Assembly: GCF_032854445.1 (NCBI RefSeq)
Contig: NC_088300.1
Location: 42,004,458 to 42,068,457 of the forward strand
DNA length: 64,000 bases
Reading direction: 5' to 3'
Source of the DNA: Liolophura sinensis
Taxonomy: Eukaryota > Mollusca > Polyplacophora > Chitonida > Chitonidae
Both the position numbers and the translations under genes were made by a program. The number at the start of each line of letters is the position of its first letter. The stretch's first letter is position 1. This document shows positions 2,541-62,760 of the stretch, piece after piece. The notes under the pieces were generated by a model that saw nothing but the letters and a program-made list of their open reading frames with translations, was not told the origin of the DNA and did no database searches.

Positions 2541-2554
2541 GGTCAAGGGCGAGA

Positions 2555-2562
2555 TATAAAAA
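2555..2562 (+). promoter_or_regulatory. Possible TATA box of the METTL24-like gene
   Basis: A TATAAAAA sequence lies about 120 bp before the chosen start codon at 2676. That leaves room for a start site near 2590 and a short 5' UTR. The assignment rests only on sequence and position. Confidence 0.35.
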
Positions 2563-2640
2563 AACTTGTTAAGCTGAGCATTACTGTAACCGGGACATGA
2601 GGTAGCACTTCGTCAGTCAAAAGTTTCCACTAACTCAGTA

Positions 2641-2661
2641 ATGTGCGGAAAATACTCATAA
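2641..2661 (+). promoter_or_regulatory. Short upstream ORF before the METTL24-like start
   Basis: A six-codon frame (ATG at 2641, TAA at 2659-2661) ends 14 bases before the main ATG at 2676. If the leader contains it, it could lower or regulate initiation at the main start. Whether it is transcribed is not shown by the sequence. Confidence 0.35.
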
Positions 2662-2675
2662 TCAGAGCTAAAAAG

Positions 2676-14600: not shown

Positions 14601-17600
14601 ATGGATTTGATTGTAATGAACATTGCCATGTGAAATGTTTTTCCTTGTAGTATTTAGAAACATGTACCTGTCGTTCGCGGCTTTAAAACCTAGATTTACA
14701 GTGAATTCCAGGTGTTCGCGGGGGAAGATCATTAACTCGGAACCGGTTCGATATAGTTGTTCTTGAAAATATTATTGCGCACCATTGTACCCACATCAAT
14801 CTCTCCTCCTAGCGTAGATCGAGGTAATGTATTCCGAATTCTAAGGACGGATACTGTGTGGTCTACACCGATAGTAGTTTAATTAGTTAAATATATTCTT
14901 CGTGTGGATGTTAGAAACGAATGTAAAATTCAAATGATAACGGCAACCAGTGTTTTTTTTCACGTTTACATTCGGCCTATTTTAACCAAGAAACTTGTGG
15001 AAAATTAGTTTCTTTACTAAAACTTAACGTTAAGAGTCAAAAAAAAACAAATCAACAGAAGAAACATCGGTAGCTGATCAACCGAGTATGTGATTCTAGT
15101 GTCTCGCGCCATACACTACGCATGCGCGTAATTATTACGCCTCAGGACGCTCGGCTTAGTCATAATTCAAATTGTCGCCTCATGCCAGCCCGAGACCGTA
15201 ATTCTTACGCTCCGGGTCTGAGAGACCATGAGAAAGGCGGGTTATAGCAAACCGCCTGCCGGGGTTAACATGACAAGCTGTGATACTGTCACGGCAAAGG
15301 TCGCTTACATTTTTTCAGAAATGAGACGGTGTTAAAGTCAAACTAGGATAAACATAAAATTACACATTGGGAAAAATAAAGACGGAACATATTACATGTT
15401 ATATTACATACTAGGTATCATTATCAGAGAGATAAAACTGTAAAGAAATGCCGGGTGCTGAGAATCGAGTCCTCGGGTCTTGACGCAAATGGACTTCAAG
15501 AGCAACTGGGATAAAAGTCAAGAGGCGATTAGCAATAAAAGAGCAGAACAGAAGTCCCAAACACAAGAATGGTGTATATATATGCCGGAACAACATAATA
15601 TAATCCTCTCGTTTCGAAGGACATCAATAGTACTGTTTACAACAAATCATAGTTGATTCTCGAAATGAAGACCTATTTATATACAGAAAAAGCATGTACA
15701 TTTGGTTTCATTGAATCTGGACAGATGTTACTCTGAATGTTTTATTTGTACCTTTTTTCACCCAGTTGTCTGGTCTGGCAGCAATTGTATAAAGGAAATA
15801 TTCTTCAGTACGGCGTAAAACACCAATGAAATGTATAAATAAAAATAAATATTTATTTTATTATTTATTTATTTGTTAATTAATTTATTCATTTATTCCA
15901 TACTTGCTTTTAATCGCTAGCTTTTCCAGTTGTTTGGTCTGGCAGCCGTTGTATAAAGGAAATATTCTTCAGTACGGCGTAAAACACCAATGAAATGTAT
16001 AAATAATAATAAATATTTATTTTATTATTTATTTATTTGTTTATTAATTTATTCATTTATTCCATACTTGCTTTTAATCGATAAATACGACATCGGTCGA
16101 TTTTATTGCTGAAGGAAACTGTGGTGCCCTGAGTAAACCACCGACCTTTGGAAAGTTAATGACGAACTTTTCCTCGTGTGAACTTTGATTTACACACCAT
16201 AACAATATAAGACACGTGGTTTGCAACAAATGTCGACTGTGCAAACGGCCACGTGAGCGTCATTGATTGCTTCTTGTCACCAAGTCTCCATCAACAGTGA
16301 GAACGGGGAAATTCACAAATTCTGTGGACATGTAAGGGTTGAGCCCGCCTCCCTCACGCCCCGGTCTCTCATTGCAGATTGTAAGCTAGCTAAGACTAAC
16401 CCCTTGTTGGCCGCCTTTGTTACTGGTAACCGTCGTCATCGGAGACAATTCGCTCTTGTAATTTTTGCTTCTGTGTAAGTGTACATTTCTGATTCAAATA
16501 GAAACCTCAACCCCACGGCAAGTGTCCAAGTGCAGAACCCGGGCATATTCCAAGTGCAGAAGAAATGGCACCAATGTCAAGGGATTCGCTTCAAGATATC
16601 TTCCACAAGTAAGTCCGGAATCTCAGAAAATGGCTAACGAATGTCTAACATATATTACCTATGGGTAAACAGTGTTTATCAGATATTATGGGCAAACGAT
16701 GTCGGCTACTTATGGTCTATGGTTAAGGGATGTCTACTATACTTATAGTCTATGGGTACAGGGCGTTTATCAGATATTACAACTGTGAGTAAAGGATGTC
16801 TACTAGTTATGATCGATGGGGTAAACAATATCTATCAGAAAGACGAACAATAGGTTTGACAAAGGAACCTTTTTACCATGAAAAAAGCTATTTATTTACT
16901 CTCCTTTTAAATAGCGGAATGTCATCGAAATTCTTCGTCATGTACATGAAAGTTTTTGTTTTATTATTTAATTTTTACCTGTTACATAATTCATCCAAAA
17001 TATGCACTATGATTTATTTATTTCATTGGTGTTTTACGCCATACTCAAGAATATTTCACTTATACGTCAGCGGCCAGAAATATGGTGGGAGGAAACCGGT
17101 CAGAGCCCGGGGGAAACCGACGACCATCCACAGGCTGCTGACGGACCTTCCCATGTACGACAGGAGGATATCTACTATGAAATTTACAAGTTTAAGACGG
17201 TAACTCTTAAGTACAGAGAATGTCTTAATATGTACATTCAGTTTTTGTACATTCGGCTTAAATAGACTAACAGATCGAAAGTGAAGCATCCCAACCACAG
17301 TTTAGGCTGTCTACCGGTAAACCAAGATTCACAGTCAAAGAGGTGTACCGATCAGAAAGGAAAACAATATTCAAAGTCAAGATGAATTATATACAGATCA
17401 GAAAGGAAAACAATATTCAAAGTCCAAGAGATTAATTATATACAGATCAGAAAGGAAAACAATATTCAAAGTCCAAGAGATTAATTATATACAGATCAGA
17501 AAGGAAATCAATATTCACAGTCAAACAGGTTAATTATATAGACATCAAAAAGGAAAACAATATTCACAGTCAAACAGGTGAATTATGTGCAGATCAGAAA

Positions 17601-20600
17601 GGAAAACAATATTCACAGTCAAACAGGTTAATTATATAGACATCAAAAAGGAAAACAATATTCACAGTCAAACAGGTGAATTATGTGCAGATCAGAAAGG
17701 AAAACAATATTCACAGTCAAACAGGTAAATTATATACAGATCAGAAAGGAAAACAATATTCACAGTCAAACAAGTGAATTATATACAGATCAGAAAGGAA
17801 AACAATATTCACAGTCAAACAGGTGAATTATATACAGATCAGAAAGGAATACACCCAATCGGACTTTGTAGGAGTATGGTTAAATCTTAGCCCATCCCTT
17901 TAGTTCGCTATATATATTCAGGTCACCAAAGTTACAACGTCATTAAATATCTTTTAAAACGCAAATATGAAATTGTCAATGTTTTCTAAATGTTAAACTG
18001 ATACATCATATAAGTTTTTTGTTTGGAAATTATGACATAATGGTGTTAGATTATAAGATTTTGAACAATTGTAACACCGAACACAAACCTGAAAGTGTTG
18101 ATTTGACATACGATAGTGTTAGATTATAACAATTTCTAAGTAGTTTGTAAAGAGTAACTGTCTCACACATTAACAAGTGTTACCCTGACATTATCAATGC
18201 TTTCCTTCCTCCACAAATGCCAGAATGTTGGATTTAACATTACTAACGTTTTATGTATAGCATACGAGTTTTAAGAGAGAATTCTAAGCACATGGGATAT
18301 CTGCTCGACTTCGATTTGGAAATACTCTGTTAATATATCATTTTTTGATTTTATTTATTATTGATATTTTTTGATACCAAGCATATACCTGCACACCAAA
18401 AATGAGAGGCTGGCAGCAAAAAAGACTTCACACCCTAAAATACACAGAATTACATTTGTAAGTGCTATAGGAGTTCTGATTCCAGTGACTTATTCCTTAT
18501 TCTCCGTGATTCCAGTGACTTATTCCTTATTCTCCGTGATTCCAGTGACTTATTCCTTATTCTCCGTGATTCCAGTGACTTATTCCTTATTCTCAGTGGG
18601 GTTCTATAGTGCTGCCGACATCCGTGAAGAACCGTTAATTTCATTTCTTTCGTCCATGAACTGGTACTTCATTTTTTTGTTTATAACATAGTTGTTGTTA
18701 ATGTTTACACATAATTTATTTTTGCATTTTAATGCTTGCCTTTCAGCTTTGTATTTTTATGAGTCGTATATTGTTTCATATAAATTTGAAATTTTCGTTG
18801 ACCCATGTTTACGTAAATTATTATGTTCAATTACACAATCGTTATGGCGTGATCTTTACGGACAAATCACGTCATTTAGCCTTCAATGTTTCACATGTAT
18901 TTCTAGATCGTACACAACTAAATTCAATCCAGATATCGCTCAGTGCATCTTCAAATAAGGAGTTTGTATAGTAAAACTACACTGTTAGTCGTCTCTAAAC
19001 CTCTTTTCTCCAAGCTTTCTTACTAGCAAAGGGACTTTTAAAGTGACCTGTTATGATATCGATAGTCATGCTTTTGTACAAGGTGCGTTTTCAACACCCC
19101 TTGATCTTTCTGATTTCAGTTACGGAAGTAACTCCGAGGTTGTCTGTCAGAAGATGTTAAGGATGGGCCTGGTCGGGGACGGGGGCTGGGAGGTGTGCGA
19201 TGACCCCCACGTCAGGCCGCCTCAAAACAACTGTCTTGTGTATTCCTTTGGGTGAGATTTATTATTTGTTTGCTTTTCACCTGTGATTATCTGTTGAAGT
19301 CATTGAACGCGTGGAGGAAATCAATACACTTTGCCAAGTGAAGGCCTCCATGGGAAACAGTATGGCCTATACACCTGCTGACGACTTCGTCCCAAGGGTC
19401 TCAGTGGACCATGGCTATAGAGGTCGTGTCAAGTTATTAGTTACCGTTTGCAGTCACAGTATATGTAGCGTAAAGTTTGTGCTCAGAGTGTCCACATACA
19501 ATTGCTTGAAGAATAAATAAAGCACTTATTTATACGTATTTCTTGGCATTTTGGCGGGCGGAGGGGGGGGGGGACGGAGCGAAAATACAAAAAACGAATA
19601 GTTTACGAGATATTGAGGAGGAAAATTATCACTTTTGCCCAGTCTGTGTGTTGTCTGACGCTTCGATTTCTATATACCAACCTCATAGATACAAGAGAAA
19701 TATTGCAGTTTTATATCATGTGACACACGGATGCAGTTAGGTTTAGTGAATACAGGAGAATGCAGTTAACAGTTACCCTTCAAGGATATGTTGCAATTTT
19801 GTAGCTCTCCAACCGACTGTTGCAGTAACATATATTTGTGTGGCGAGGCCTGATTTGGACACACACATTCCTTGCGTCTCTCCAATATCATTGAAAACTC
19901 TTGACTGCTGCTTTTTACATGACTCCTCCTATTTTTCTTACTTAAAATTTAAGTAACTTGGTCATTTCTATGGTGGTATGTGTTAAACATCGTTCTGGGA
20001 AATGACCTTGCGATTATTGATCCGGAGCGTCCATTATTGTTGACGGCTGTTGTACGAATGTCTTTTGAATCTTACATCCATATCAGGCGAAAAGATGAGT
20101 TAAACGATGAGTTTGTAAAATGCACAGTACAATGAGCTCAGCGAACTTTGAGACTAAAATAAGTAACGATGACTTAAACCGTAAAGCTGTAGTACTTGCA
20201 TTAATTCAACAATTACAACAAATATGGCTGCCCTGGAATGTTCTGTTTATATTATAGCTTATGTGTCTCTGGGCAACATGCTTTAATTATACCTCATATG
20301 TTTTACAGTACATTCCTTAAATACTTCCATTACCAAATGTACTCCTGACAATCTTTGTTATGAAACGATAAACAGTGCTACATAAAAACGCGATGTGAAT
20401 TGTTTGAAATCATTCAGCGTATTTCCGCTTCCATCATATAGAGGTCCCGGTTTCCTTCTTATTTCAGAGTATGCCTGTATAATACAAAATAGCATAGCTT
20501 TACACAAAACAAGAAATAATGAAGGAAACCGAAGAGCAAAATTCTGAGGCGAGGCAGCGATAGAAAAAATGAAAGTAAAATAAAACGATTATATATTATT

Positions 20601-23600
20601 ATTAATAAACCTATCATGTACTGTATAACGTAATATTTTGCATATTGTCTTTATGGTGCTTAAAATAATTTTAACTTACATGTAAAATATAAAATAATTG
20701 GCTTCATTTGCAGTGTGTTTTTTTGACTGAGCTGCCTGTATTTATTTCAGTATAAACAATGACTTCAGCTTTGATGACATGGTGGCTTTACATTATGGCT
20801 GCGAAGTCCATTCCTTTGATCCCAGGTAATTTAGCTCGATGTCTTTCTGGTTATATACCCTAATCACTCCGTGGGGTAGTACCGTGAAGACTCCACTGCG
20901 TTTATACCTTAATCACTCTGTGTACTAGCACCGTGAAGATTCCACCGCGTTTATACCCCAATCACTCTGTGTGATAGTACCGTAAAGATTCCACAGCGTT
21001 TATACCCCAATCACTCTGTGCGGTGGTAACGTGAAGATTTCACCGCGTTTATACCCCAACGACTCTGTGTGGTAGTACCGTGAAGATTTCACCACGTTTA
21101 TACCCCAATCACTCAGTGTGGTAGTACCGTGAAGATTCCACAGCGTTTATACCCCAATCACTCTTTGTGGTGTTACCGTGACGATTCCACCGCGTTTATA
21201 CCCCCAGTCACTCTGTGTACTAGCACCGTGAAGATTCCACCGCGTTTATACCCCAATCACTCTGTGTACTAGCACCGTGAAGATTCCACCGCGTTTATAC
21301 CCCCAATCACTCTGTGTACTAGCACCGTGAAGATTTCACCACGTTTATACCCCCAATCACTCTGTGTAAAAGCACCGTGAAGATTCCACCGCGTTTATAC
21401 CCCAAGCACTCTGTGTGGTAGTACCGTGAAGACTCCACCGCGTTTATACCCCCAATCACTCAGTGTGGTAGTACCGTGAAGATTCCACCGCGTTTATACC
21501 CCCAATCACTCTGTGTACTAGCACCGTGAAGATTCCACCGCGTTTATACCCCAAGCACTCTGTGTGGTAGCACCGTGAAGAATCCACCACGTTTATACCC
21601 CAATCCCTCAGTGTGGTAGTACCGTGAAGATTCCACTGCGTTTATACCTCAATCACTCTGTGTGCTAGAACCGTGAAGATTCCACCGCGTTTATACCCCC
21701 AATCACTCTGTGTGGTAGTACCATGAAGATTCCACCGCTTTTATACCCCCGATCACTCTGTGTGGTAGTACCGTGAAGATTCCACCGCGTTTACACCCCA
21801 ATCACTCTGTGTGGTAGTACCATGAAGATTTCACCGCGTTTATACCCCCAATCACTCTGTGTGGTAGTACCGTGAAGATTCCACCGCGTTAATGCTCCAA
21901 TCATTCTCTGTGGTAGTACCGTGACGATTCCACCGGGTTTATGTCCCAGTCATTCTCTGTGGTAGTACCGTGCCGATTCCACCGGGTTTATGTCCCAGTC
22001 ATTCTCTGTGGTAGTACCATGAAGATTCAACCCCGTGTAAACTATTATACACTCCGCAAGAACGCCATGTTTTGTGAATAGTATGTTTACTATGAAACTC
22101 ATGATAGACGTTGCTTGCATGATAGGCGTTCCTGTTGATTTCCTTGCATGTCTGTGAACAAGCCACCACTGTGTTCACACGGCGTTGTTGCTGCGTCATA
22201 TCAGCGCTTAGTTACGCCGGGTCTGCACAAGTGCAACGTTTTGTTGGACGTCCCACTGCGCTTATGTAAGACTGTACAGTGACCAGTCCAGATGTGATCG
22301 CTGAACACCAAGCGGTGAAGGGGCGAGTACCGTTTGTCGGACAGTGACGGACAACGGTCTGAATGCCTGGGCTTCTTGTACAGCAGACACTGTAAGAATT
22401 ATATTGCGTGCTTGTCTACAAATAATTCAATTCGGCATATTTATTTTTAGATTTTCGAATATCATTCAGTGGAGAATAAAATAAATGCATATTTCTCTCA
22501 AAACAGTCACGTTTTTCAGTCGCAGTCTTAATTTTTAAAAGCTTAATTAAAGGCATATATATCGTTAAAGGGATCTTCAGTTTGGTGAACATTCTCTTTA
22601 AAATTAATCAAACTTTTTATTTCATTAGTATCAAAGTCGTGTTAGGTCTGCAGCAATTCGAGCATCTGGACGTGTTACTCGTGATAATAGTAGGTCTGAA
22701 CAACAGATTGATCACTGTCAACCGAATTCCGCTTTACGTCACTTACGTTCTGGCTGCAGTTTCATGTTTGTTTCCATTATTTGAAGGTCTTTTCTTGTTG
22801 TAAATTTCCCCAATCGAAGTGAATAGTACTTAAACTAACTGCGTTTCAGTAAGTAAACAAAGCAAAATCTTTTATTTGGAAACAGCATGAAAATGAAGAC
22901 TTCTCGCCGAAATGCAAACGTCATGTTTCACCACCTGGGGGTTTCCGGAATGAACGGTCAGATAAAAGGGAAATGGCCTGTGAACACATTATCGAAGATT
23001 CGCCAGGATTTGGGACATTCTCAAGTATGGCTTCTTCTTTGAAACTTTCTAGAAACCTAGTTTATACCAGGCCTTTATATGAATACGACCCCTATTTATA
23101 TATGATATAGATACCTGCTCAACTGAGGGCAGCCAGTCACCGTCACCATGGGTGCAACTTGTTGTGACAAACATACATGGGTCCCTCAGCTGGTACGGAG
23201 ACTGACATCTTCACATCACCAAAAGCGAGACCCGTGATGTGATAGTCAGTTGTATTCAGAAGCCATCATTGCCTGAAGATCAACATTAACTTTGGAAGCG
23301 TCCTCCTCTCTTTCTGTAAACGTTCGTTTTAAACACTGTATACCTTGAACGGTTGTAGCCATGTATATGAAAAATACACCTATGCATATACCTTGATTAG
23401 ACGTTGGTGAGAAGGCCCTTACCAACCGTTCGATAACCCTTACCAATTTCTTAATTCAGCAATGTATTGTGACATAATTGTAAGCACGATATTGCTTCAG
23501 ATCTAATGAATTTTCATGAAAACTATACAACATGTGCACCTGTGGGAAAGGACTCTATCATCAAAAAGTGCCCTTGCATTGTTTTAATGTGATTGTATGT

Positions 23601-33508: not shown

Positions 33509-36500
33509 TCACTCTCTCAGGGCCTCTATAACAGCATGTTCCAGACTGGTCACTGTCTCTGATGTAGACACAGTCTCCTCTGCACACACAATTGGCAGTG
33601 CATCCTCAGCACTTGGCTGAGCCTCCTCATCCACAACACCTGATTCCTGCTGGGGCATCACTAACATACTGGATACCTCCCCATCAGACGCTGATCCCCG
33701 GGGAGACACTGAGTACACATGGGGGTTAGTCCTTGGGGAAGTGAGTGGAGAGGCTGGCCACTCTGGACTCCTGTGTGAGCTGGGGGACAGCATGTACACA
33801 TGTATGACAGTGCCCTGCCCCGCAGAGTCCGCACCCTTCTGGGTGACCAGCACTAACTGACTCCCCCCAACACTAGGAATGTTATGAACAGTCTGAATCT
33901 GTACAGGATCAGCTCTCCTCCCTTCAGGGGTCTGGCTTCCCGTAGACTTCACTGAGACGCTTGTTCTATTGTCCGCCTGTGTGATGACACCGGGGTCTTT
34001 CTTCTGCCTTTTTCTGGCAGCTGCCGCTACTGCCTGCTCCTCTGCTGTATAAAAGCTGGTTCTCTTAGGGACGCGTCCTGACCGTGTGGTCTGACACATA
34101 TTCTCCAGAACCCGGGATGTATCCTCCTCATCACTGGAGCTACCAGCATCTTTCTTGGCGATGGTTCTGAACTCCTCATTGTCCTCATCATCATCCTCCA
34201 GGTCTACGGGCACACACGGGCCTTCTAGTACCACCGCACCACCAGGTTCTCTTCATGGCAAGAACAATGAAAAACAAGGTTAGCATAAACTTAATAATGA
34301 TAAAAGAGTTCCAGTGAATACACTTTGGATTCTTTGGTGATGTCATTAGGGGACATGGCGAAAGGTGCTAATGCTTAACATTTCCACTTAGAGCAAGCAC
34401 GACTCGGTCTTCTCATTTTCTTAGAAGAAGGAAGTAAAGTTAGACGTGATTTACCCAGACATTTTTTTTTTTTTTCAGATCGAGAGCTCACCTAGTGATT
34501 AATAGATCAGGACTAGATTCGAAAGAGATGCTTGCAATTTCACAGCACAAGGAAAATACTATTGTTAACTGACTTACAAAATGATCGTTGCGTTGACCTG
34601 TTCTGACCTACAGTGTTATTGACATGATCCTTAGACTGATCTGTTCTGATCTGATGAACCAGACCATAGTAACAGCACTGTAAGCTGTACGTCACCATTA
34701 CAGTTACATGCTAGTATAACAGTACAGACAGCTACATGAATCCAACACCAGCTGTGATCTGACCAAAGAGGACATCAGACTGACCATCTGATGAACCAGA
34801 CCATAGTAACAGCACTGTAAGCTGTACATCACCATTACAGTTACATGCTAGTATAACAGTACAGACGGCTTTGTGAATCAAACACCAGCTGTGATCTGAC
34901 CAAAGAGGACATCAGACTGACCATCTGATGAAACAGACCATAGTAACAGCACTGTAAGCTGTACATCACCATTACAGTTACATGCTAGTATAACAGTACA
35001 GACGGCTTTGTGAATCCAACACCAGCTGTGATCTGACCAAAGAGGACATCAGACTGACCATCTGATGAACCAGACCATAGTAACAGCACTGTAAGCTGTA
35101 CGTCACCATTACAGTTACATGCTAGTATAACAGTACAGACGGCTTTGTGAATCCAACACCAGCTGTGATCTGACCAAAGAGGACATCAGACTGACCATCT
35201 GATGAACCAGACCATAGTAACAGCACTGTAAGCTGTACCTCACCATTACAGTTACATGCTAGTATAACAGTACAGACAGCTACATGAATCCAACACCAGC
35301 TGTGATCTGACCAAAGAGGACATCAGACTGACCATCTGATGAACCAGACCATAGTAACAGCACTGTAAGCTGTACATCACCATTACAGTTACATGCTAGT
35401 ATAACAGTACAGACAGCTACATGAATCCAACACCAGCTGTGATCTGACCAAAGAGGACATCAGACTGACCATCTGATGAACCAGACCATAGTAACAGCAC
35501 TGTAAGCTGTACATCACCATTACAGTTACATGCTAGTATAACAGTACAGACAGCTACATGAATCCAACACCAGCTGTGATCTGATCAAAGAGGACATCAG
35601 ACTGACCATCTGATGAAACAGACCATAGTAACAGCACTGTAAGCTGTACGTCACCATTACAGTTACATGCTAGTATAACAGTACTGACAGCTACATGAAT
35701 CCAACACCAGCTGTGATCTGACCAAAGAGGACATCAGACTGACCATCTGATGAACCAGACCATAGTAACAGCACTGTAAGCTGTACGTCACCATTACAGT
35801 TACATGCTAGTATAACAGTACAGACAGCTACATGAATCCAACACCAGCTGTGATCTGACCAAAGAGGACATCAGACTGACCTGTTCTGATCTGATGAAAC
35901 AGACCATAGTAACAACACTGTAAGCTGTACGTCACCATTACAGTTACATGCTAGTATAACAGTACAGACAGCTACATGAATCCAACACCAGCTGTGATCT
36001 GACCAAAGAGGACATCAGACTGACCATCTGATGAACCAGACCATAGTAACAGCACTGTAAGCTGTACGTCACCATTACAGTTACATGCTAGTATAACAGT
36101 ACAGACAGCTACATGAATCCAACACCAGCTGTGATCTGACCAAAGAGGACATCAGACTGACCATCTGATGAACCAGACCATAGTAACAGCACTGTAAGCT
36201 GTACATCACCATTACAGTTACATGCTAGTATAACAGTACAGACAGCTACATGAATCCAACACCAGCTGTGATCTGACCAAAGAGGACATCAGACTGACCA
36301 TCTGATGAACCAGACCATAGTAACAGCACTGTAAGCTGTACATCACCATTACAGTTACATGCTAGTATAACAGTACAGACAGCTTCGTGTATCCAACACC
36401 AGCTGTGATCTGACCAAAGAGGACATCAGACTGACCATCTGATGAACCAGACCATAGTAACAGCACTGTAAGCTGTACATCACCATTACAGTTACATGCT

Positions 36501-39500
36501 AGTATAACAGTACAGACAGCTACATGAATCCAACACCAGCTGTGATCTGATCAAAGAGGACATCAGACTGACCATCTGATGAAACAGACCATAGTAACAG
36601 CACTGTAAGCTGTACGTCACCATTACAGTTACATGCTAGTATAACAGTACAGACAGCTACATGAATCCAACACCAGCTGTGATCTGACCAAAGAGGACAT
36701 CAGACTGACCTGTTCTGATCTGATGAACCAGACCATAGTAACAGCACTGTAAGCTGTACGTCACCATTACAGTTACATGCTAATATAACAGTATAGACAG
36801 CTACATGAATCCAACACCAGCTGTGATCTGACCAAAGAGGACATCAGACTGACCATCTGATGAACCAGACCATAGTAACAGCACTGTAAGCTGTACATCA
36901 CCATTACAGTTACATGCTAGTATAACAGTACAGACAGCTACATGAATCCAACACCAGCTGTGATCTGACCAAAGAGGACATCAGACTGACCATCTGATGA
37001 ACCAGACCATAGTAACAGCACTGTAAGCTGTACATCACCATTACAGTTACATGCTAGTATAACAGCACAGACAGCTACATGAATCCAACACCAGCTGTGA
37101 TCTGACCAAAGAGGACATCAGACTGCCCTGTTCTGATCTGATGAACCAGACCATAGTAACAGCACTGTAAGCTGTACGTCACCATTACAGTTACATGCTA
37201 GTATAACAGTACAGACGGCTTTGTGAATCAAACACCAGCTGTGATCTGACCAAAGAGGACATCAGACTGACCATCTGATGAACCAGACCATAGTAACAGC
37301 ACTGTAAGCTGTACGTCACCATTACAGTTACATGCTAGTATAACAGTACAGACAGCTTCGTGTATCCAACACCAGCTGTGATCTGACCAAAGAGGACATC
37401 AGACTGACCAACTGATGAACCAGACCATAGTAACAGCACTGTAAGCTGTACCTCACCATTACAGTTACATGCTAGTATAACAGTACTGACAGCTACATGA
37501 ATCCAACACCAGCTGTGATCTGACCAAAGAGGACATCAGACTGACCATCTGATGAACCAGACCATAGTAACAGCACTGTAAGCTGTACATCACCATTACA
37601 GTTACATGCTAGTATAACAGTACAGACAGCTACATGAATCCAACACCAGCTGTGATCTGACCAAAGAGGACATCAGACTGACCATCTGATGAACCAGACC
37701 ATAGTAACAGCACTGTAAGCTGTACATCACCATTACAGTTACATGCTAGTATAACAGTACAGACAGCTACATGAATCCAACACCAGCTGTGATCTGACCA
37801 AAGAGGACATCAGACTGACCTGTTCTGATCTGCAGTCTCCTTCTCTGCTGAATCATCACTTTCCTCGAAGTGTTGAGCATGTGCCCTCCTCCCTGTAAAA
37901 CATAAAACCTTCATTTAGCACTACATGAATATCCCACCCCAACCCTTTACCCTCATTACATTACACTTCCTTGTCACTTTTGCGCTACTGACACATGTCC
38001 ACTGGTTCAATGATGCAGTAGCATGCCAACATGATAACAATGCACATGTATTACACTAAATGGTAATTTTTAAGGAAAGAATTTCAAAAAGTCATACATT
38101 TTTGGACTACTGAATCTGAAAGTGACAAAATATGAAAAACAAGGTTGACATGTATTTAGGCTATGGAGATGTATGTTTATGCCAATTAAATTGCATGCAT
38201 ACAAATGTACATGTATTAAACTTTAACAGAAGACCTTAGTTGTGATACCATTTCAACTTACTTGCAGTTTTCCGTTTTCTGCCCACCTTCTTTGGCTTGC
38301 CCTCAGAGCTCTCTTCCTCATCACCTTGACCCTTTGTCCTCTTTTTAACCCTCCCCTTTCCCTTTCCAGCCGCCTTCTTTCTTGGGGCTTTGTCTTCACC
38401 TTCATCAGATACATTCTCAAACACAGACATGTCGATCTTCTTTCTCTCTTCTACAGATAACAAACGGGACAGACTTAATGATAACTCTGTGATTGTGTAC
38501 TGCTATCATGTATTTATGCCTTCAACTGGACCCACAAAGAAGTTTCCAGATTAAGCAGCGAGAGCTTAGAGCCATGCCCTACATTAAATAATGCTTAACT
38601 GTATACCCCTAAATTGCAATAGAAGGCCAACAGTGGTCGCCCACTTTAACAGATCACATTTAACACTTTTAAAGGTTTATCCAACACCATTTATGCCATA
38701 CTGGAGTTCTGTGCCCTGATAATAAGCCAACAGAAGTCCACTTAGATAACATGCACATTTAGTACTTTATAAAAAGTTTTACCCATGCTGAACATCTAAA
38801 CACTTATCTACATGTAAAATCCTAACACTCTAAAAGTGGCTAAGTTTATACAAACAACTACCGGTATGTTAAAATTCATAAATGCACCAACCACTTACTT
38901 AAAGCCTTGTCTACCTGAGATCTGTTATATTTTTCTTCTCGCTTGAACTTTTTCTGCAATATAAAGTTTACACTGGGTTAATCAACATCTGAAAAGCATT
39001 TTACTCAGCATAAAATATAAAGTATAACTACTAAGTTGGTAGAGCATGACATACACACAGTTACGTGTATAAACAGAGGCCAGAGCAGATAATGGGAATT
39101 TTGAAGACAGTTGCCAAGTTCAAGCCTAAATGCTGAGGACATATTCAGGTGGCTGCAAATAACGAAATGTTTGAGACTGTTGCTACAAGGGGAAATAGGG
39201 GATTATTTGAAGATTGTTGCCATGTTCAGGTGAAACTGTTGCCAGGCTCAGGTGACGGTATATAGAGGGATGTTTGAAAACTGTTGTCAGGTTCAAGTGA
39301 GGTCAAATAGGGGAATGTGTGAAGACTACCACCATGTAAACATTACAGATAGATCAGGCCTGTCCATGGGGTCGTGAAAAGGGTTATCATGTCGTATGAC
39401 CTTTACAGCTGTATTACTAACACTGGGAGTATGAAGTGGAAAAGTGTCTTCTCACCTTGAGATCATATCTGTTCCTCCTCTTGAACAGATTGCTCATCAT

Positions 39501-42500
39501 GGAGAAGTCTGTTCCCACAACACTCAAGGCATAGTAAAATCTTTCTGTCTCTGAAAACACAAATACACTCTGCTACAAATCTGAAGGCTACAGAGTTTAT
39601 ATGGTACAGGTCACCTTTAATGAACTATATTGAAGTTGATCATGAACTATGATGCAGACACCTGCTGTCAGAAGAGCAAGGACGCGACTCATGATTTCTT
39701 CTGATCCGTTTTAGCCGAGTTACATGTGCCTGGTGGTAAATCTGGGGTAGCTAATCAAAGGTTACTCCATCCAGACTCACTAACAACGTGACCCTTGTCT
39801 CACCTTTCTCTGTCCAGTTTTTGCTAAGATGCCTGGTTCTGAAACTGGAAGAGGTGATCAAAGAATCGGTCTCGTCCACAACTCCAATGTCTGACATCTC
39901 TGACTGGTCACTTGGCTTCTCTATCACTAAACTGTTGAATTTGGGAAAAAGGTGAGAGACAAAGAGAAGCAAATGTCCTTACGTACACATACAACATACA
40001 CAAAACCTTTAGTACAGTGATAGGTGGCAATATTACAGCTTTAAAAAATGAGTCATGAAGTAACCACTTAGAAGATACATAATAATAACAAGACCCAACT
40101 TCATAACAAATCTAGTTTTACCACATTGCACCAGTCTAATCTTAATACAAAACAAATGGAAATTTAGTCCAGACTATAGACTACACATTTGAACAAACTA
40201 AGTGCCTTAATACCTTTACCTAATAGATCTGCATTGTATTGAATATAAAAAAAAAAAATACAAAAAACAAACAAGTGAGTTCATCAATACGGGAGTGAAA
40301 TGACATAAAGCTTTAAAGCTGGTAACAGCAAGAGGCATCTACATCCTTCTCATGTATACTGGGCAACATAATATTGTTACATCAATTCTACGTTTTTATT
40401 TTATCTGTTCCTCAGATATCTCAGCATACAAACCTCTCTTCATTCAGTATGATAGAGCCATCCGGCCCAATCTTCACCTGTGGAACAGGCAGCTCTTCAT
40501 CCTTCTCCATCACCTCTTGGGAACCTCCATCTTTAAGTGCATCAGAGACATCATGCCCAGATTCAACGGCTTTCTTTTTCTCACGGACCCTTCAATACAA
40601 GATCGATATCAGAGCTCCTTATGTATACATGTATATTATGACTACATCTGGCACATACTTCAGCCTGTAGCAGCTTCCTACATGTATATCATGACTACAT
40701 CTGGCAGATGCTTCAGCTTGTAGCCTCTTCCTACATGTATATCATGACTACATTGTACATCTGGCACATACTTCAGCCTGTAGCAGCTTCCTACATGTAT
40801 ATCATGACTACATCTGGCACATACTTCAGCCTGTACCAGCTTCCCACACGTATACCAAGACTACATCTGGCACATACTTCAGCCTGTACCAGCTTCCTAC
40901 ATGTATATCATGACTACATCTGGCACATACTTCAGCCTGTAGCAGCTTCCTACACGTATATCATGACTACATCTGGCAGATACTTCAGCTTGTAGTCTCT
41001 TCCTACATGTATATCATGACTACATTGTACATCTGGCACATACTTCAGCCTGTAGCAGCTTCCTACATGTATATCAATACTACATCTGGCAGATACTTTA
41101 GCCTGTAGCTGATTGCTACATGTATCTCATGACTACATCTGGCACATACTTCAGCCTGTACCAGCTTCCTACATGTATATCATGACTACATCTGGCACAT
41201 ACTCCAGCTTGTAGCCGATTCCTACACGTATATCATGACTACATCTGGCACATACTTCAGCCTGTAGCCGATTCCTACATGTATATCATGACTACATCTG
41301 GCAGATACTTCAGCCTGTACCAGCTTTCTCCATGTATATCATGACTACATTTGACAGATACTTCAGCCTACAGCAGCTTTCTCCATGTATATCATGACTA
41401 CATCTGGCAGATACTTCAGCTTGTAGTAGTTTCCTCCCTATATATTTTGATTTATGACATGTACGTGTAGATAGAGAGTGAGTACAAGAGTGTTCAGCAC
41501 GCCATAGCTTCTTATGTTATCACATACTGTAAATCTTCCAGCCTTTTCAAGCACTAAAGTACTTTTTCCAGTGGAATTTAAGCATAAAATTAGTATTGAA
41601 ATGACGACAAAATGATTTGTTTGTGTCATTAAAGATGCAAGTTTAAAAAACTGTGTAAATTAGTTGTCTACGCCCATACCTCTCTCAAATTGTTTCAAAA
41701 TATCGGTTTGAGACATAGCTGAAAAGGTTGTAGATTTACATGTACAGAGGTTGTGACTATAGGATGGTTCATCATGTCACAAACCATGTTACACACCTAA
41801 TTATTTATTTATTTACTGGTGTTTTAGGCCAATTTCATGAGTATTTCACTCATATGACGGTGGTCAGCAATATGGTAAGACACCTTGAAGAGCCTGAGAG
41901 AACTCATAACCATCTGCTCGATGATAACAGCAAAGAGGAAGCCAGCTTGAGCTGGAATTAACTCATAGCAACCACATTAGTGAGATGCTCACAGAGATTA
42001 CAAAAGCTAAGATTACAAGAGTGTCATTCATTCATTTGTTCGTTCATTCACTGTAGCCTCAGCAGCTCAGTCTGCTTCAGGGGCAGCAGATAAAGAGTCA
42101 ATCCTGGGACGGGTCACACCTAAGAGCTTAAAAGAGGAAGTTGTAGCTTCCTTGCTTGGCGTTCAGCATTAAGGGGATAGTGCAACAATTGGTTGACCCA
42201 TATCAGTATAATGGCTCGGGGAAGACTGCATACTTGTCTTCGGTAAGTCGTCTCAGTGAACCAGCACTAGATAAAAGATCAGTGGAAATCCATCTCGGAA
42301 CAAGGAGGCAGCACTCTAAGGACAGCTTCATCGTCACACGACTGAAAAATTGTTAAGTATGGTGTTAAACCCTAACCACTCACTCATTCATTCATTCATT
42401 TATTTATTAATTTATTTGATTGGCGTTCAACGCCGTACTCAAGAATATTTCACTTGTATGACGGTGGCCAGCATTACAGTGGGGCAGAGCCCTGGGGAAC

Positions 42501-45500
42501 CCACGACCATCCGCAGGTTGCTGAAAGACCTTCCCCTGTACGGCCGGAGAGGAAGCCAGCACGAGCTGGACTTGAACTCAGAGCGACCGCATTGGTGAGA
42601 GACTCCTGGGTCATTATGCTGCGCTAGCGCGCTAACCAACCATTCATTCATTCATACAAACATACTTGTACACAGGATCTATGATACAGGTATATAAAAT
42701 ATTGTAAATGCAAAAAAACTATAATGTCCTTAAATCCAATAGCAAACATGGGTCACTATGGGACCTTTACATGCAATTACTTACTTCATGGGATTTTTAA
42801 TGGGATTCCAATATATCAAATCCTTCATGAGCATTTTGAATTTATCAGGTGGTTTGTCAACAGGGGCTTGAACTCTTGGCAGTCTCCGTTTATGTTTTGG
42901 TGCTGGTGGAGGGGACTGAAAAAAATATATCACAATATCACACTGATAATGTACATCAAAATTAAATACTGATCTTTTACAAGTAGAATATGACGTTTTT
43001 TTTATTGCACAACATGTGCAGCACTCAAGTATAACAGCATCAGTCTTACTGTGGTGCATTTTACAGAAGAATGTTAACAACCACATTGCTTGAATGGGGG
43101 GGGGGGTTAATCATTATCTAATACAATGAAATACAGATATACTGCCTCTTTAACAACTCCTTATGCAAAGTACTTCATCAACATTTTGGATGTAACCAAC
43201 ATCACAATTTTTTTTTTTACAAATACTGGTATTACTCATCTAATTTTTTCAGTTTATGTTTCAATCCATGATGAGCAAGCACTATATCTGAAATAATCAT
43301 CTGTAAACAACAGAACAGTATGCAATACATTTCTTAGATCACCTGCTAACAATCTTCCTGTTGGTAACCACAATTTTAATTGCTTTGTTTTAAACAGTTT
43401 CACAGGTCAGCTGTCATGCTTGGAACATCTTTGCAAATCAAAACGGCATCATCACTTACTGATTTTTGGTCACAACATTTGAAAAATTTTTTCAACCAAT
43501 AAAATTGTAGGAGATATGTGTTTTCATGCGATTTCAGCTAATGCATTTACTATGAATGTATTACTGACTTTCTTCATGTTTCATAAATACAATTATATAC
43601 ATGTATGCTGTTTCTTCTTATTTATGTACTGTTACAGTGGATCTCTGTCAAGAGCAAACTGTACCATTTGCCACTTACCCTCATTATATTCCAAGACAAC
43701 CCCATCGTTCATTCATCCACTGCGTATGCCTTACCTCCTTAACCTCCTCTTCATCTTTAGAGGGTTCACTCTCAGCTACTGACCCTGAGGTGGAGAGGCG
43801 GGCGTTGTGGCTGGGTGGAGGGCATTCAGGGTGAGTGGGTGGGAGTGGGGGTGTGAACACTTCATGGTTTCCATACTCAGCCACCTCCCCTGCTATCACA
43901 ACCTCAGCTCCTACTCGCTCTCCACAGCTGTCTACTGCATCACTGTAATATCGGACAGTGATTGTAATATGAGACATTAAATGTAATATCCAAAACTATG
44001 ACATCAGACAGTGACTGTAAGGTCAGACAGTGACTGTACATGTAATATCAGACAGTGACTAATATCAGACATTGACTGTAATATCAGACACTTACTGTAA
44101 TATCAGACATTGACAGTAATATCAGAAAGTGACTATAATGTCAGACAGTGACTATAATGTCAGACAGTGACTGTACATTGTACAGGTAATATCAGACAGT
44201 GACTATCAGCATGACTGCAATATCAGAAGGACAGTAACCTCAAACAGTGACTGTACTATCTGACAGTGACTGTAATACAAAACAGTAACTGTAATATGAA
44301 ACACTGACTATTATATTCGACAGTGGCTATTACCTCAGACAGTGAATGTAATATCAGAAAGTGACCATAATGTCAGACAGTGACTATAATGTCAGACAGT
44401 GACTGTACATTGTACATGTAATAACAGGCAGTGACTATCAGCATGACTGCAATATCAGAAGGACAATAACCTCAAACAGTGGATGTACTATCTGACAGTG
44501 ACTGTACTATCTGACAGTGACTGTAATACAAAACAGTAACTGTAATACGAAACACTGACTATTATATTCGACAGTGGCTATTACCTCAGACAGTGAATGT
44601 AATATCAGACAGTGACTGAAATACCAGGCAGTCACTAACAGGCCACTAAATCTGGCGCAAACGAAGCGATGGTACAAACATTAGCTACGAATGTAATTTT
44701 GCAGACCAATAAATTGGTTGCGCCAATCTGTCCCCCGGAACCCAGAACGTTCCCACAAATGCAGCGCTTGAACTGCGCATCGATTAATGGGTATATATGT
44801 ATTAGAGTTACCCACACAAGGCTGCTGGTCATCCTCAGAGTAAGATGTAACGCCAGCTACCACAAAATAGAAGTCCTGTCAGTTGTTAGAGCTACCTCTT
44901 CCCAAGATGTTTTAATCCAAAACAAGCACTAATCCGACTGTAAACCAAAGTCGTCATTTGGTGGCATGATTCTGCTAGAAACTTGAACACAACGCCATGA
45001 TGCACTAAATGCAGTCATCAGCTTTCTGCTCTCACCAAATTTTGTCGAGGTCTGTGCTCTATTTCTTAATTGGGTTAATACATCTGCGCTGTCTCCTGCC
45101 ATTTGTGCAGACAAGCCCACCCCACAAAACACCATTTAATCTCGCGACTTTCGTGTCAAAACAAAATATTAAAACTTTTGGCAATGAAAGTACTATTCGA
45201 CTTTCAGCCACAATTTCCTGCCGTGAGCGTGCCCACTACATGTTTCCTTGTTATTTTATCACTTTAAAAACATGAATGTACTACAGCTGAAAATCTCCTT
45301 TTGAATTGGTTACCAACAATGTTATAAAAACATTCAAAGTGCCATGCCACTAGCACACCACCTCCACACAGTCAGCTGGCTAATAGTATTCCACTACCAT
45401 CCAAACCATGGGTACGGTCACTGGCTCACAGCAACATTCTTTCTTGTTTGCATTCAGATCAGCTTGTACTACCAGTCAGTTTAACATACCAAAGAACCTG

Positions 45501-47629
45501 TGGAGATGTGGTCCTTTCTGTAGCAGTTCTGGACTCAGAGACTTCATCCTGAGCCACCCTGGGGGTGTCCGACAGATCAGCTGTCAAGTCAGAACCATGC
45601 AAAGGTGTTACAGGTTGGACGTTTAGTTGATTAGAAGTTTGTGTAGTGTCCAATGCTTTATTGGCAGACCTCCTGAAAACAAAATAAATCATGTGTGATG
45701 TACATGTCTGATATCATCAGTATAATGTTTATAATAGTATCACTTTAGTATAGTCCTTAAAATTATATCAGGAATCCTTGAAGGATATTGATATCTTAAA
45801 AGTAAAATGTTTATGTTTTTCTCTGGATGACAGTCCATGTTAAATAAAGTGTTACCCCTCTAGAATACTGCCCTTCAGCAATCACCATATACAAGTACAT
45901 GTATACCTACACAGTGCATGTTCGATTGCATACCCACGGCCAATTATCAAATCCGAAACACGACAAGCTCAGATCGGAGCACCTCACAAACTTATTTCAG
46001 TTCCTAAGCATTACAATAATGCCGTGTCTTTCACAATTTTATCGCATACATTGCAGGCCTGTAATTACTGCATGTTTATGGTGAAAGACAGACAAGCTCA
46101 AAGTCTATATAACTATTTATAACTATAAACTAGACCATGTAGACACATACATATAACAACCATTACACATTTTAAACCATTTATGTATGATACGTGTGTA
46201 TGCTTGGGGTTTTAACACATACATCAAATTTTCAGTCACATGATGACGAGGAGTCAATAGGTGTGTGTACACATATGTATATTGTGTCTTCTTGGGGCAG
46301 GGTGAGTCCATGCTGCCAAAGTACTGCCATCACTGAAGTATCAAGCAGAAGACACCAGACATGACACCCACCCAGTCACATTATACCAACACCCGGCCAA
46401 CCAGTCATTTTTCCTTGCTCTGACCTCTCAGTGCTGAGCACCGAGGCAGCAGCAAGTAACATTTTTAAAATCTTTGCTATGACCCGACCCAGGTCTGATC
46501 CTGAGGTCTCCCGACTTCATAAAGCAATTATGAACAGTACTGGTGACTCAAATCAAAGATTACAGTTTTGTGGGAAATAAAGAAAATTATGCCACAAAAA
46601 GTTATAAAAAATTTTGGGGGCATATTTCATGTCCCAAAAATACTTCCTCTCACTGGCTAGAAGTTTTCAGGAATCACATCAACTTACCGGTTAAGTGGAA
46701 TCAGCTTCACAACGATGATTTAGCCCAAAGAATTGTTTTGACAACTATCACCCTTAATGACATGACTGCAGGTTATTTAATTTCCATACCGACTGCCACG
46801 GCCTTACATAGTCTGCAGACATTTTTAGGTTCCATGAAAAAAACTGAAAACTTATTTTTGTACTTCTTTATGCTACGACACGTCCTCAATTGCATTTAAA
46901 GTCATGAAAAGCCATGTTTTAATCGTATTGCTTAAATTTTTCTGGGCATTCTGTGAACTATCGTATTAGTTATGTCGTCATTATTGTCATAACTATCAAG
47001 CATACACACCTGGTCCTCGATTTACCGGCCTCTGAAAGGTTAGGCTTAACACGGTTGGCAAACCGACTGCGCAGTCTTGCAGCTGGCTTGGTGATCTCTT
47101 TGTCAGTCTTTTCTGGAGATGGTGATTGCACTTTGTTTTGTAGACTGTTCACCTGACCAGAGGATTTCTGTCCTGTGTCCAGTGGTTTTTCTTTTATCTT
47201 CGTTAGTTCTACCTCCTCACATCTGGACTGCTGAGATGTGCATTTAGAGCTGCTGTCTTTGATATTCTCACTGCCTGAGTTAGTCACTATGGCTACATTT
47301 GGCACAGTTGCTGCCTCACACCTCTCTCCATCAAGAGTATTTCCCCTTTGAACAGCTACTTGCTGTACTCTTGATAAGGGGCTGGGTTGTGTGTTTTGAG
47401 TTACTATTGAACCTGCTGGTGGATTATCAGCACTATTCCCTCTGACCTTGTGACCAGTACTCTCCAGGGCTGTCTCATTATCTTTAGCACTGACAGTTGG
47501 TTTGTCTTGAGGTGCAACAGAGGGGCAAGGCTTATCTTCTACTTTTGAAGGTCGGCTACCAGGAGGTTTACCGCCACGAGAACCTAAATTAGGTTTCACC
47601 TGAAGTCTGGACCTCCTCATAGACATCAT
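33509..47629 (-). CDS. BDP1: BDP1, TFIIIB B'' subunit for RNA polymerase III initiation, 11 exons, 859 aa
   Basis: Nuclear protein that joins TBP and BRF in TFIIIB, recruits Pol III and helps open promoters of tRNA, 5S and U6-type genes. Exons (minus): 47629-47010, 45672-45490, 43942-43735, 42915-42785, 40589-40434, 39931-39804, 39550-39456, 38953-38899, 38450-38262, 37892-37820 and 34250-33509. All borders are AG/GT and all phases agree. Family marks in order: N-terminal 'MRRSRLQVKPNLGSRG'; 'RVKPNLSEAGKSR' (near 190-205); 'KFKMLMKDLIYWNPIKNPM' (near 365-380); 'VPQVKIGPDGSIILNEE' (near 415-432); SANT domain about 464-525 with 'WTEKETERFYYALSVVGTDF', 'SMMSNLFKRRNRYDLK' and 'KKFKREEKYNRSQVDKAL'. 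A Lys-rich acidic/basic segment follows, then a Ser/Pro-rich C-terminal exon. Total length is near yeast Bdp1 and far below the roughly 2600-aa human protein. The first of three close ATGs was taken as start; the others would remove 1 or 3 residues. Confidence 0.92.
34600..37833 (-). repeat. 137/144-bp minisatellite, 23 copies, in the last BDP1 intron
   Basis: Copies of 'AGACCATAGTAACAGCACTG' begin at 34661, 34798, 34935, 35072, 35209, 35346, 35483, 35620, 35757, 35901, 36038, 36175, 36312, 36449, 36586, 36730, 36867, 37004, 37148, 37285, 37422, 37559 and 37696. Spacing is 137 bp except for three 144-bp steps. The 144-bp form has an extra piece that on the minus strand reads 'AGATCAGAACAG' before 'GTCAGT', identical to the end of BDP1 exon 10 and its donor (37820/37819). 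Copies are more than 95 percent alike by eye, so the array is young. All three minus-strand frames hit stops within a unit, so it is not coding. Confidence 0.95.
40621..41440 (+). repeat. 53-bp minisatellite, 15 copies, just upstream of BDP1 exon 5
   Basis: Unit 'TACATGTATATCATGACTAC' 'ATCTGGCACATACTTCAGCC' 'TGTAGCAGCTTCC'. Copies of 'ACTACAT' fall at 40641, 40694, 40748, 40808, 40860, 40913, 40966, 41019, 41079, 41132, 41185, 41238, 41291, 41344 and 41397. Two copies carry a 7-bp TTGTACA-type insertion and are 60 bp. The array's left end is about 30 bp from the BDP1 exon 5 acceptor (40591/40590), so it covers the likely branch-point region. Plus-strand open frames here are made by the repeat. 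Confidence 0.92.
41690..41990 (-). mobile_element. Diverged SINE family A copy, minus orientation
   Basis: 'TTTACTGGTGTTTTAGGCC', 'GAGTATTTCACTCATATGAC' and 'GGTGGTCAGCAATATGG' match the tail and body of family A with many changes. 'AGCTTGAGCTGGAATTAACT' and 'GTGAGATGCTC' are the remains of its head. It lies in a BDP1 intron. Confidence 0.65.
42070..42375 (+). mobile_element. SINE family B relative, plus orientation
   Basis: Starts with a diverged tRNA-like head ('GCAGCTCAGTCTGCTTCAGG', 'GAGTCAATCCTGGGACGGG'). It continues with 'TAAAAGAGGAAGTTGTAGCT' and 'GGGGATAGTGCAACAATTGG', shared in inverse orientation with 29540-29915, and ends 'TAAGTATGGTGTTAAACCC' with a CATT-rich tail. The next SINE has inserted at its tail. 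Confidence 0.65.
42400..42641 (-). mobile_element. SINE family A, full length, minus orientation
   Basis: Tail 'ATTTATTTGATTGGCG', 'CAACGCCGTACTCAAG', body, then tRNA-like head 'ACTTGAACTCAGAGCGACCG', 'GCTGCGCTAGCGCGCTAACC'. Both sides border CATTCATTCATTCAT, either its target duplication or the tail of the older SINE it landed in. The element lies in the BDP1 intron between exons 4 and 5. Confidence 0.75.
43945..44640 (-). repeat. 18-20-bp degenerate tandem array abutting the BDP1 exon 3 acceptor
   Basis: About 30 drifted copies of 'ATATCAGACAGTGACTGTA' on the plus strand. A higher-order block of about 250 bp is duplicated: 44125-44375 and 44365-44620 share 'ATAATGTCAGACAGTGACTG', 'GACTATCAGCATGACTGCAA' and 'TTATATTCGACAGTGGCTAT'. 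On the minus strand each unit reads 'TACAGTCACTGTCTGATAT', and the real exon 3 acceptor ('GATATTACAG', ending at 43943) is itself the first unit. Confidence 0.85.
44640..45480. other. BDP1 intron 2 sequence with nothing recognised
   Basis: Several short frames on both strands (for example 44929-45135 minus) have no splice sites that suit them and no family resemblance. Confidence 0.4.
46195..46520 (-). mobile_element. SINE family B, minus orientation
   Basis: Shares with the 11590-11940 copy the words 'GGTGTGTGTACACATA', 'CACTGAAGTATCAAGC', 'GGCCAACCAGTCATTTTTCC' and 'CTATGACCCGACCCAGG'. Minus-strand head 'GAGACCTCAGGATCAGACC' is B-box-like. It lies in BDP1 intron 1. Confidence 0.65.
46540..47000. 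other. BDP1 intron 1 sequence with an unsupported open frame
   Basis: A 118-codon plus-strand frame (46543-46899) is open but has no recognisable motif, no splice context and lies in the intron of a gene on the other strand. I leave it unannotated. Confidence 0.4.
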
Positions 47630-61284: not shown

Positions 61285-61475
61285 CTGCATCACATCTGCT
61301 TACAGTCCTACAGGTCCAGTATTTACAATCAACTGCATCAAGTCTCCTTTTTACAGTTCTCCAGGTACAGTATTTACAAGCAACTGCATCAGGTCTCCTG
61401 CTTACAGTCCTACATGTACAGTATTTACAAAGCAACTGCATCAGGTCTCCTGCTTACGGTCATTTGGGTGCAGTA
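61285..61475 (+). repeat. Tandem repeat of about 57 bp, 3-4 copies
   Basis: Unit contains 'ACAGTCCTAC', 'GTACAGTATTTACAA', 'GCAACTGCATCAGGTCTCCT' and 'GCTT'. Copies begin near 61301, 61355 and 61406, with a partial one at 61440. Three overlapping open frames across it are by-products. Confidence 0.75.
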
Positions 61476-61496
61476 TTTAGAGTATTTGCCATTCTG

Positions 61497-62339: not shown

Positions 62340-62760
62340 CATCAGGTGGTAGGGTGGTATACTGTGACCTGGTAAAGTGTCACAGGCTGTCGGTGGTGCG
62401 ATAATGGTGGTACAGTGGTGATCAGTGTGACGCTATCATGTGGTAGGCTGGTATATTATGGCCGGGTTAATGTTGTCACAGTGACATAGGCGGTCGGTGG
62501 TGCGATAATGGTGGTACAATGATGGACAGTGTGACGCTATCATGCGGTAGGCTGGTACACTATGGCCGGGTTAATGTTATCACTGACATAGGCGGTCGGT
62601 GGTGCGATAATGGTGGTACAGCGGTGACCAGTGTGACGCTATCATGCGGTGGGCTGGTATACTATGGCCGGGTTAATGTTATCACTGTGACATAGGCGGT
62701 CGGTGGTGCGATAACGGTGGTACAATGGTGGTCAGTGTGACGCTTTCAGGCGTGGAAAAA
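62340..62760 (+). repeat. About 104-bp tandem repeat, 4 copies
   Basis: 'CGGTGGTGCGATAA.GGTGG' begins at 62391, 62495, 62597 and 62701. Each copy also has 'CAGTGTGACGCTATCATG', 'GGTAGGCTGGTA' and 'TATGGCCGGGTTAATGTT'. A partial, drifted unit precedes it. Confidence 0.85.

Follow-up and report, generated by a model that had tools for sequence, protein, structure and literature searches.

A 23-unit minisatellite across an exon–intron border in BDP1 of the chiton Liolophura sinensis, probably of the amphioxus mirage type

Minisatellite-like repeats that run across exon–intron borders are known from amphioxus as mirages and have been described there in Adh, the globins BflGb6 and BflGb9, troponin C and PGBD5; their units are reported to measure 10–160 bp, take in either a 5′ or a 3′ splice site and in many cases carry the corresponding AG or GT (PMC3087553, PMC3902484), and reverse transcription PCR suggested that they leave splicing undisturbed (PMC3087553). 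Two further systems are the human IFI6 (G1P3) gene, where downstream units of a minisatellite are described as acting as donors and giving rise to three mRNAs (PMC4526556), and introns formed by tandem genomic duplication, exemplified by ATP2A1 and potato RdRp (PMC4974935). A limited search of open-access full text found no such arrays reported for chitons or other molluscs; a study on cone snails deals with microsatellites in introns (PMC3862624). Here we describe an array of 23 units that starts inside exon 10 of the gene BDP1 in the chiton Liolophura sinensis, within a window of 64,000 nucleotides (assembly GCF_032854445.1, contig NC_088300.1, positions 42,004,458 to 42,068,457; all coordinates below are those of the window). 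In our judgement it is probable, with some room for doubt, that this array is a mirage-type, border-spanning minisatellite which arose by duplication across the border, is mostly neutral and is one of several in the genome.

BDP1 was rebuilt on the minus strand as 11 coding exons joined in one uninterrupted frame of 2580 nt (859 amino acids), its start being taken as the first ATG of the open frame and its exon borders being predicted from the reading frame rather than from cDNA. The protein matches the Pfam family Myb_DNA-bind_7 (PF15963) with E=4.2e-26, and a portion of its sequence is similar to human BDP1 chains, with E=7.9e-34 (chain 9fso_T). The features on which the argument turns are the following, a slash marking the splice junction:

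33509..47629, minus strand: BDP1 gene (TFIIIB component B″), ATG at 47629, stop at 33511–33509, exon joins in frame
37820..37892, minus strand: exon 10 (73 nt), the repeat unit beginning with its last 13 nt (37832–37820)
37814..37822, minus strand: true 5′ splice site CAG/GTCAGT, junction 37820/37819, GT at 37819–37818
34641..37819, minus strand: minisatellite array of intron 10, 23 units, 19 of 137 bp and 4 of 144 bp
37122..37139, minus strand: damaged donor copy AGATCAGAACAG/GGCAGT, GG for GT
36704..36712, minus strand: intact donor copy CAG/GTCAGT closing a 144-bp unit, junction 36710/36709
35875..35883, minus strand: intact donor copy CAG/GTCAGT closing a 144-bp unit, junction 35881/35880
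34633..34640, minus strand: partial last copy ATCAGTCT, with AT, not GT, at the donor position
33509..34250, minus strand: exon 11, its first base 34250 directly preceded by the acceptor TTGCCATGAAG/ and separated from the last full array unit by 390 nt

Like a mirage, the array combines minisatellite-sized units in head-to-tail order with exon sequence, intron sequence and a splice site within the unit. The program Tandem Repeats Finder places it at 34649–37820, with a period of 137, 23.0 copies and 96% matches; split at the donor position, it falls into 23 units, among which units 5, 8, 14 and 23 are of the 144-bp form, and over its span of 3.2 kb it fills 89% of intron 10. Where the 144-bp form reads ATCAGAACAG, the 137-bp form reads ATG, having lost 7 bp (CAGAACA). 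With this block set aside, mean pairwise identity of the units is 97.4%, and five of the 23 equal the consensus. Since only 6 of the 17 variants are singletons (0.19% of the 23 x 137 sites), the others being widely shared, the variants point to recent amplification; and as the 144-bp form borders the exon, recurs in three of the inner units and closes the array, it is probably the older of the two, the 137-bp form being derived. The array, known from one haploid assembly, stands at a single location: a two-unit query returned at least 22 genome matches, and all 22 of those listed fall inside it, which gives no support to a dispersed satellite or mobile family.

The border itself, as predicted from the frame, lies within the unit. 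Thirteen nucleotides of exon end, CAGATCAGAACAG, are common to exon 10 and the 144-bp unit; identity stops there, with no matching run farther upstream in the exon, and the same sequence occurs in the window five times on the minus strand and never on the plus strand. As for the forms that join exon end and donor, AGATCAGAACAGGTCAGT is found on the minus strand of the window three times, once at the true exon end and twice as an intact copy, two damaged forms occur once each (AGATCAGAACAGGGCAGT, beginning at 37139, and AGATCAGAACAGATCAGT, beginning at 34652), and the shorter units contribute CAGATGGTCAGT, with ATG/GTCAGT, 18 times and CAGTTGGTCAGT, with TTG/GTCAGT, once. A search of the window found none of these five forms outside 34590–37850. 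The GT is kept in 21 of the 23 extra copies, counting the partial last one.

An earlier, sequence-only reading of this DNA had named the gene as BDP1, with exon 10 at 37892–37820 and exon 11 starting at 34250; the complete frame, the Pfam match and the match to human chains bear out the identity, and the rebuilt gene has the same two exons. The 23-copy minisatellite that it described is recovered both by the repeat finder and by the unit-by-unit split, and its claim that the edge of the array is the end of exon 10 with its donor agrees with the 13 exon nucleotides found to belong to the unit. The positions that it gave for intact (35883, 36709) and damaged (37124, 34640) donors are correct to within a few bases, and the ATG/GTCAGT that it assigned to the shorter units is present in 18 of them, the TTG/GTCAGT unit being a further variant. 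We likewise regard its suggestion that the tandem duplication began across an exon–intron border as the explanation that fits best; a like anatomy is seen in other genes of the genome.

On this account, a 144-bp segment, 13 nt from the end of exon 10 and 131 nt from intron 10, would have been duplicated in tandem, probably via unequal exchange or slippage, and would then have been amplified to 23 units, the CAGAACA deletion in one unit being carried along until the 137-bp form became the majority. The copy nearest to the exon would have stayed the working 5′ splice site, with the others lying downstream in the intron and the protein unchanged; that this outermost copy is the one in use is suggested by the fact that it closes the real exon.

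The frequency of such arrays elsewhere in the genome was estimated from a control sample chosen regardless of arrays, namely 84 loci with the best-scoring Pfam exon matches (30 myosin-head, 28 kinesin and 26 SNF2, forming about 47 clusters by 50-kb grouping). Of their 168 borders, 11 were dropped for a best splice-site call below 0, which leaves 157 callable ones; some of the matches run through short introns, one locus (L064), a large open frame, may have no introns, and two borders, the acceptor of L041 at 1507 and the donor of L054 at 1658, were re-set by hand to Pfam match and reading frame. Arrays that copy both exon and splice site span five of the 157 borders (3.2%, 95% interval 1.0–7.3%), three of them donors and two acceptors:

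L054, kinesin exon, donor: 54 exon nt coding PASYNESETKSTLMFGQR plus GTAAGATAGTGTG, 73-bp unit, 21.6 copies, array cut by the locus
L075, SNF2-family exon, donor: 29 exon nt plus CAG/GTAACT, 65-bp unit, 22.6 copies, cut by the locus end
L023, myosin exon, donor: 16 exon nt plus CAG/GTATGT, 66-bp unit, 8.1 copies
L041, kinesin exon, acceptor: TTGTACAG/ plus 23 exon nt, 64-bp unit, 11.8 copies
L076, SNF2-family exon, acceptor: acceptor plus 37 exon nt, 88-bp unit, 2.6 copies

Because the exon parts of these units lie inside Pfam matches, conservation suggests that the copying went from the exon into the intron. The array at a sixth locus, L083, begins 5 nt into the intron and was not counted as spanning.

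Some of these loci have features of their own. The two SNF2-family exons, about 3.4 kb apart on contig C1, probably belong to one gene, which would thus hold a donor-spanning array at the one and an acceptor-spanning array at the other. At the myosin locus (oriented 1673–3131, contig C12), the 66-bp array continues into a 25-bp x 38 array with CAG/GTATGT-like sites, and arrays make up about 75% of the intron. The 73-bp unit of L054 (oriented 1605–3168, contig C11) is mostly exon (54 nt); of the 20 donor positions matched in it, a count that takes in the true donor, 12 have GTACGA and 4 GTAAGA.

The fate of the copied sites bears on the supposed neutrality. Of the 72 extra copies in the four donor arrays, BDP1 included, 69 have kept their GT, and every one of these arrays shows less damage in the splice-site core than around it, which gives no sign that donor decoys are visibly purged.

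Several observations weigh against the reading as a whole or against one of its parts. Exon borders taken together are avoided by arrays, or protected from them: around the sampled exons, array coverage is 15–17% at a distance of 401–1300 nt, drops to 4.0% at 1–20 nt and is 2.7% within the exons themselves, over the 30 nt next to the border, figures in which bases of overlapping loci are counted repeatedly and other exons in the flanks are unmasked. Of the exon-facing array edges, 5 fall inside exons and 10 within the first 100 nt, versus 48 in the next 1200 nt; this slight crowding near borders is what would follow if arrays spread through introns as far as selection permits. The three acceptor arrays keep their AG less well than the donor arrays keep their GT, namely in 18 of 26 copies, and in L041 the AG core is damaged more than its surroundings (0.15 vs 0.094), so acceptor decoys may matter and be under some pressure; the difference between 69/72 and 18/26 has a Fisher P=0.0009, a value that carries no weight, the copies within an array not being independent. 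At BDP1 itself, scoring with a vertebrate-type matrix gives the acceptor TCCTCTTTGGTCAG/ATCA 4.21 in all 23 units, above 7 of the 10 real BDP1 acceptors, that of exon 11 (1.70) included, and the array might therefore not be silent. The direction from exon to array would rest here on parsimony in one genome; the 13-nt overlap is short, and TCAGAACAGGTCA occurs just past the array as well, at 34606, so the region has short direct repeats anyway.

This last point leads to a first alternative, that an ordinary intronic minisatellite happens to abut the exon and that the 13-nt match goes back to short direct repeats which were already there. Arrays are abundant, both around the sampled exons and in the window, about 11% of which is covered by eight arrays of at least 3 copies (those of BDP1 included), and as the present one takes up so much of its intron, random placement would bring it equally near to the exon edge with P=0.134; the same test, made after the arrays had been seen and given little weight, yields P=0.007 and P=0.071 for the arrays of introns 2 and 4 described below. 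Coincidence, however, leaves unexplained why exon bases stand within the unit, and why five further borders have 16–54 exon nt inside a repeat, and we consider it improbable.

A second alternative, which we hold to be decidedly improbable, grants the array a function: its acceptors and donors would be spliced at a useful rate, adding stop-bearing exons of 111 or 118 nt, and the level of BDP1 mRNA would follow copy number through nonsense-mediated decay. The best acceptor of each unit, TTGGTCAG/ATCA in 21 units and TTGATCAG/ATCA, with a G to A change, in the other 2, forms together with the next donor a candidate cryptic exon of just these lengths. The true exon 10 donor scores 4.56 and the ATG form 2.43, which is still more than two of the gene's ten real donors reach (2.14 and 0.58). 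At an acceptor score of at least 4.2, a donor score of at least 2.4 and a spacing of 25–300 nt, the array contains 43 acceptor–donor pairs, compared with a mean of 1.7 (maximum 7) in 18 equal minus-strand windows and of 2.2 (maximum 6) in 17 plus-strand windows; yet such an excess is inevitable when one unit repeats 23 times, the scores derive from vertebrate-type frequencies, and amphioxus mirages are reported to leave splicing undisturbed (PMC3087553). A stop codon arises, either in the inserted sequence or where it meets exon 11, in all 241 single cryptic exons with acceptor at least 0, donor at least 1, a length of 20–300 nt and a start at least 60 nt past exon 10, a set whose members are not independent, as the units repeat, and which comprises single insertions, not chains. 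Such exons would therefore yield no new protein, an in-frame extension by single insertions was rejected, and read-through from exon 10 stops after three codons (R-S-V); use of the array could thus lower BDP1 mRNA and would not lengthen the protein by single insertions. The sequence-only reading had considered many cryptic micro-exons possible from TGTACAG and CTTACAG acceptors; cryptic exons survive on paper, at 111 or 118 nt and from another acceptor, and the micro-exons are not supported: the two sites score -3.7 to -6.0 and -2.0 to -4.3, respectively (23 units each), all 23 + 23 of them below -1.9.

That the array created intron 10 by tandem genomic duplication, a model well described in the literature (PMC4974935) and favoured by the CAG/GT at the unit's edge at the exon and by the CAG that ends the last full copy, is very improbable indeed, for such an intron would take its GT from the first copy and its AG from the last, whereas here the acceptor that keeps the frame lies at 34250, 390 nt past the array, exon 10 joined to the CAG of the last copy reads AGA TCA GTC TAA, a stop, and the array of intron 2 likewise falls short of its donor, by 853 nt.

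The other arrays of BDP1 stand as follows:

43942..44636, minus strand: 19-bp array of intron 2, 38.2 copies with 67% matches by Tandem Repeats Finder, degenerate
40626..41435, minus strand: 53-bp x 15 array of intron 4, separated from exon 5 by 36 nt, the splice site lying outside

The former ends exactly at the acceptor of exon 3, whose first base is 43942, and takes in this one exon base only; its unit, ...TTACAG/T, is the exon 3 acceptor itself. The two units adjoining that acceptor lack AG (they read TTACAT and TTACAA), and the resulting AG-free stretch of 51 nt is the longest among the ten BDP1 acceptors; an alternative in-frame acceptor, GTAGACAG, may exist 15 nt inside exon 3, where it would be compatible with the frame. 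Beyond the intron 10 array, at 34607–34578, there is a possible 30-nt in-frame micro-exon (GTAG/GTCAGAACAG...TTTT/GTAAGT) with the open frame RSEQVNATIIL and an acceptor score of -2.04, which shares TCAGAACAGGTCA with the end of exon 10. Further minisatellites of the window lie at 17346–17853, 20854–22036, 61296–61479 and 62376–62752.

Taken furthest, the findings would make border-spanning minisatellites a genome-wide, still-active class at roughly 1–7% of exon borders, with some copies spliced, with array length varying splicing or mRNA between individuals, and with a new exon or intron seeded occasionally; this is an extension that we think unlikely. At such a frequency, thousands of splice sites would be copied into introns, and if several per cent of borders in both chiton and amphioxus genes are affected, these arrays may be a recurrent product of genomes rich in tandem repeats and, if so, a constant supply of material from which exons and introns can newly arise. 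Serial near-exact copies of working 5′ or 3′ splice sites amount to a natural test of how the splicing machinery chooses its sites, and border-spanning arrays complicate gene annotation in repeat-rich genomes.

Among the known systems, the BDP1 array is closest to the amphioxus mirages: in both, a minisatellite lies across an exon–intron border and carries splice signals in many of its units. They differ in extent – 23 units over 3.2 kb in BDP1, 6 and 3 units in the haplotypes of amphioxus BflGb6 – and in phylum, and the chiton case is known from genome sequence alone. Like the BDP1 array, the repeat of IFI6 lies where an exon ends and has donor sites in its units, the copies in BDP1 being donor-like by sequence. 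With introns born of tandem genomic duplication it shares the duplication that carries AG and GT signals, but the acceptor in use in BDP1 lies beyond the array, which has therefore enlarged an intron and did not create one. The array is thus of the mirage kind, and it seems to have many counterparts elsewhere in the genome.

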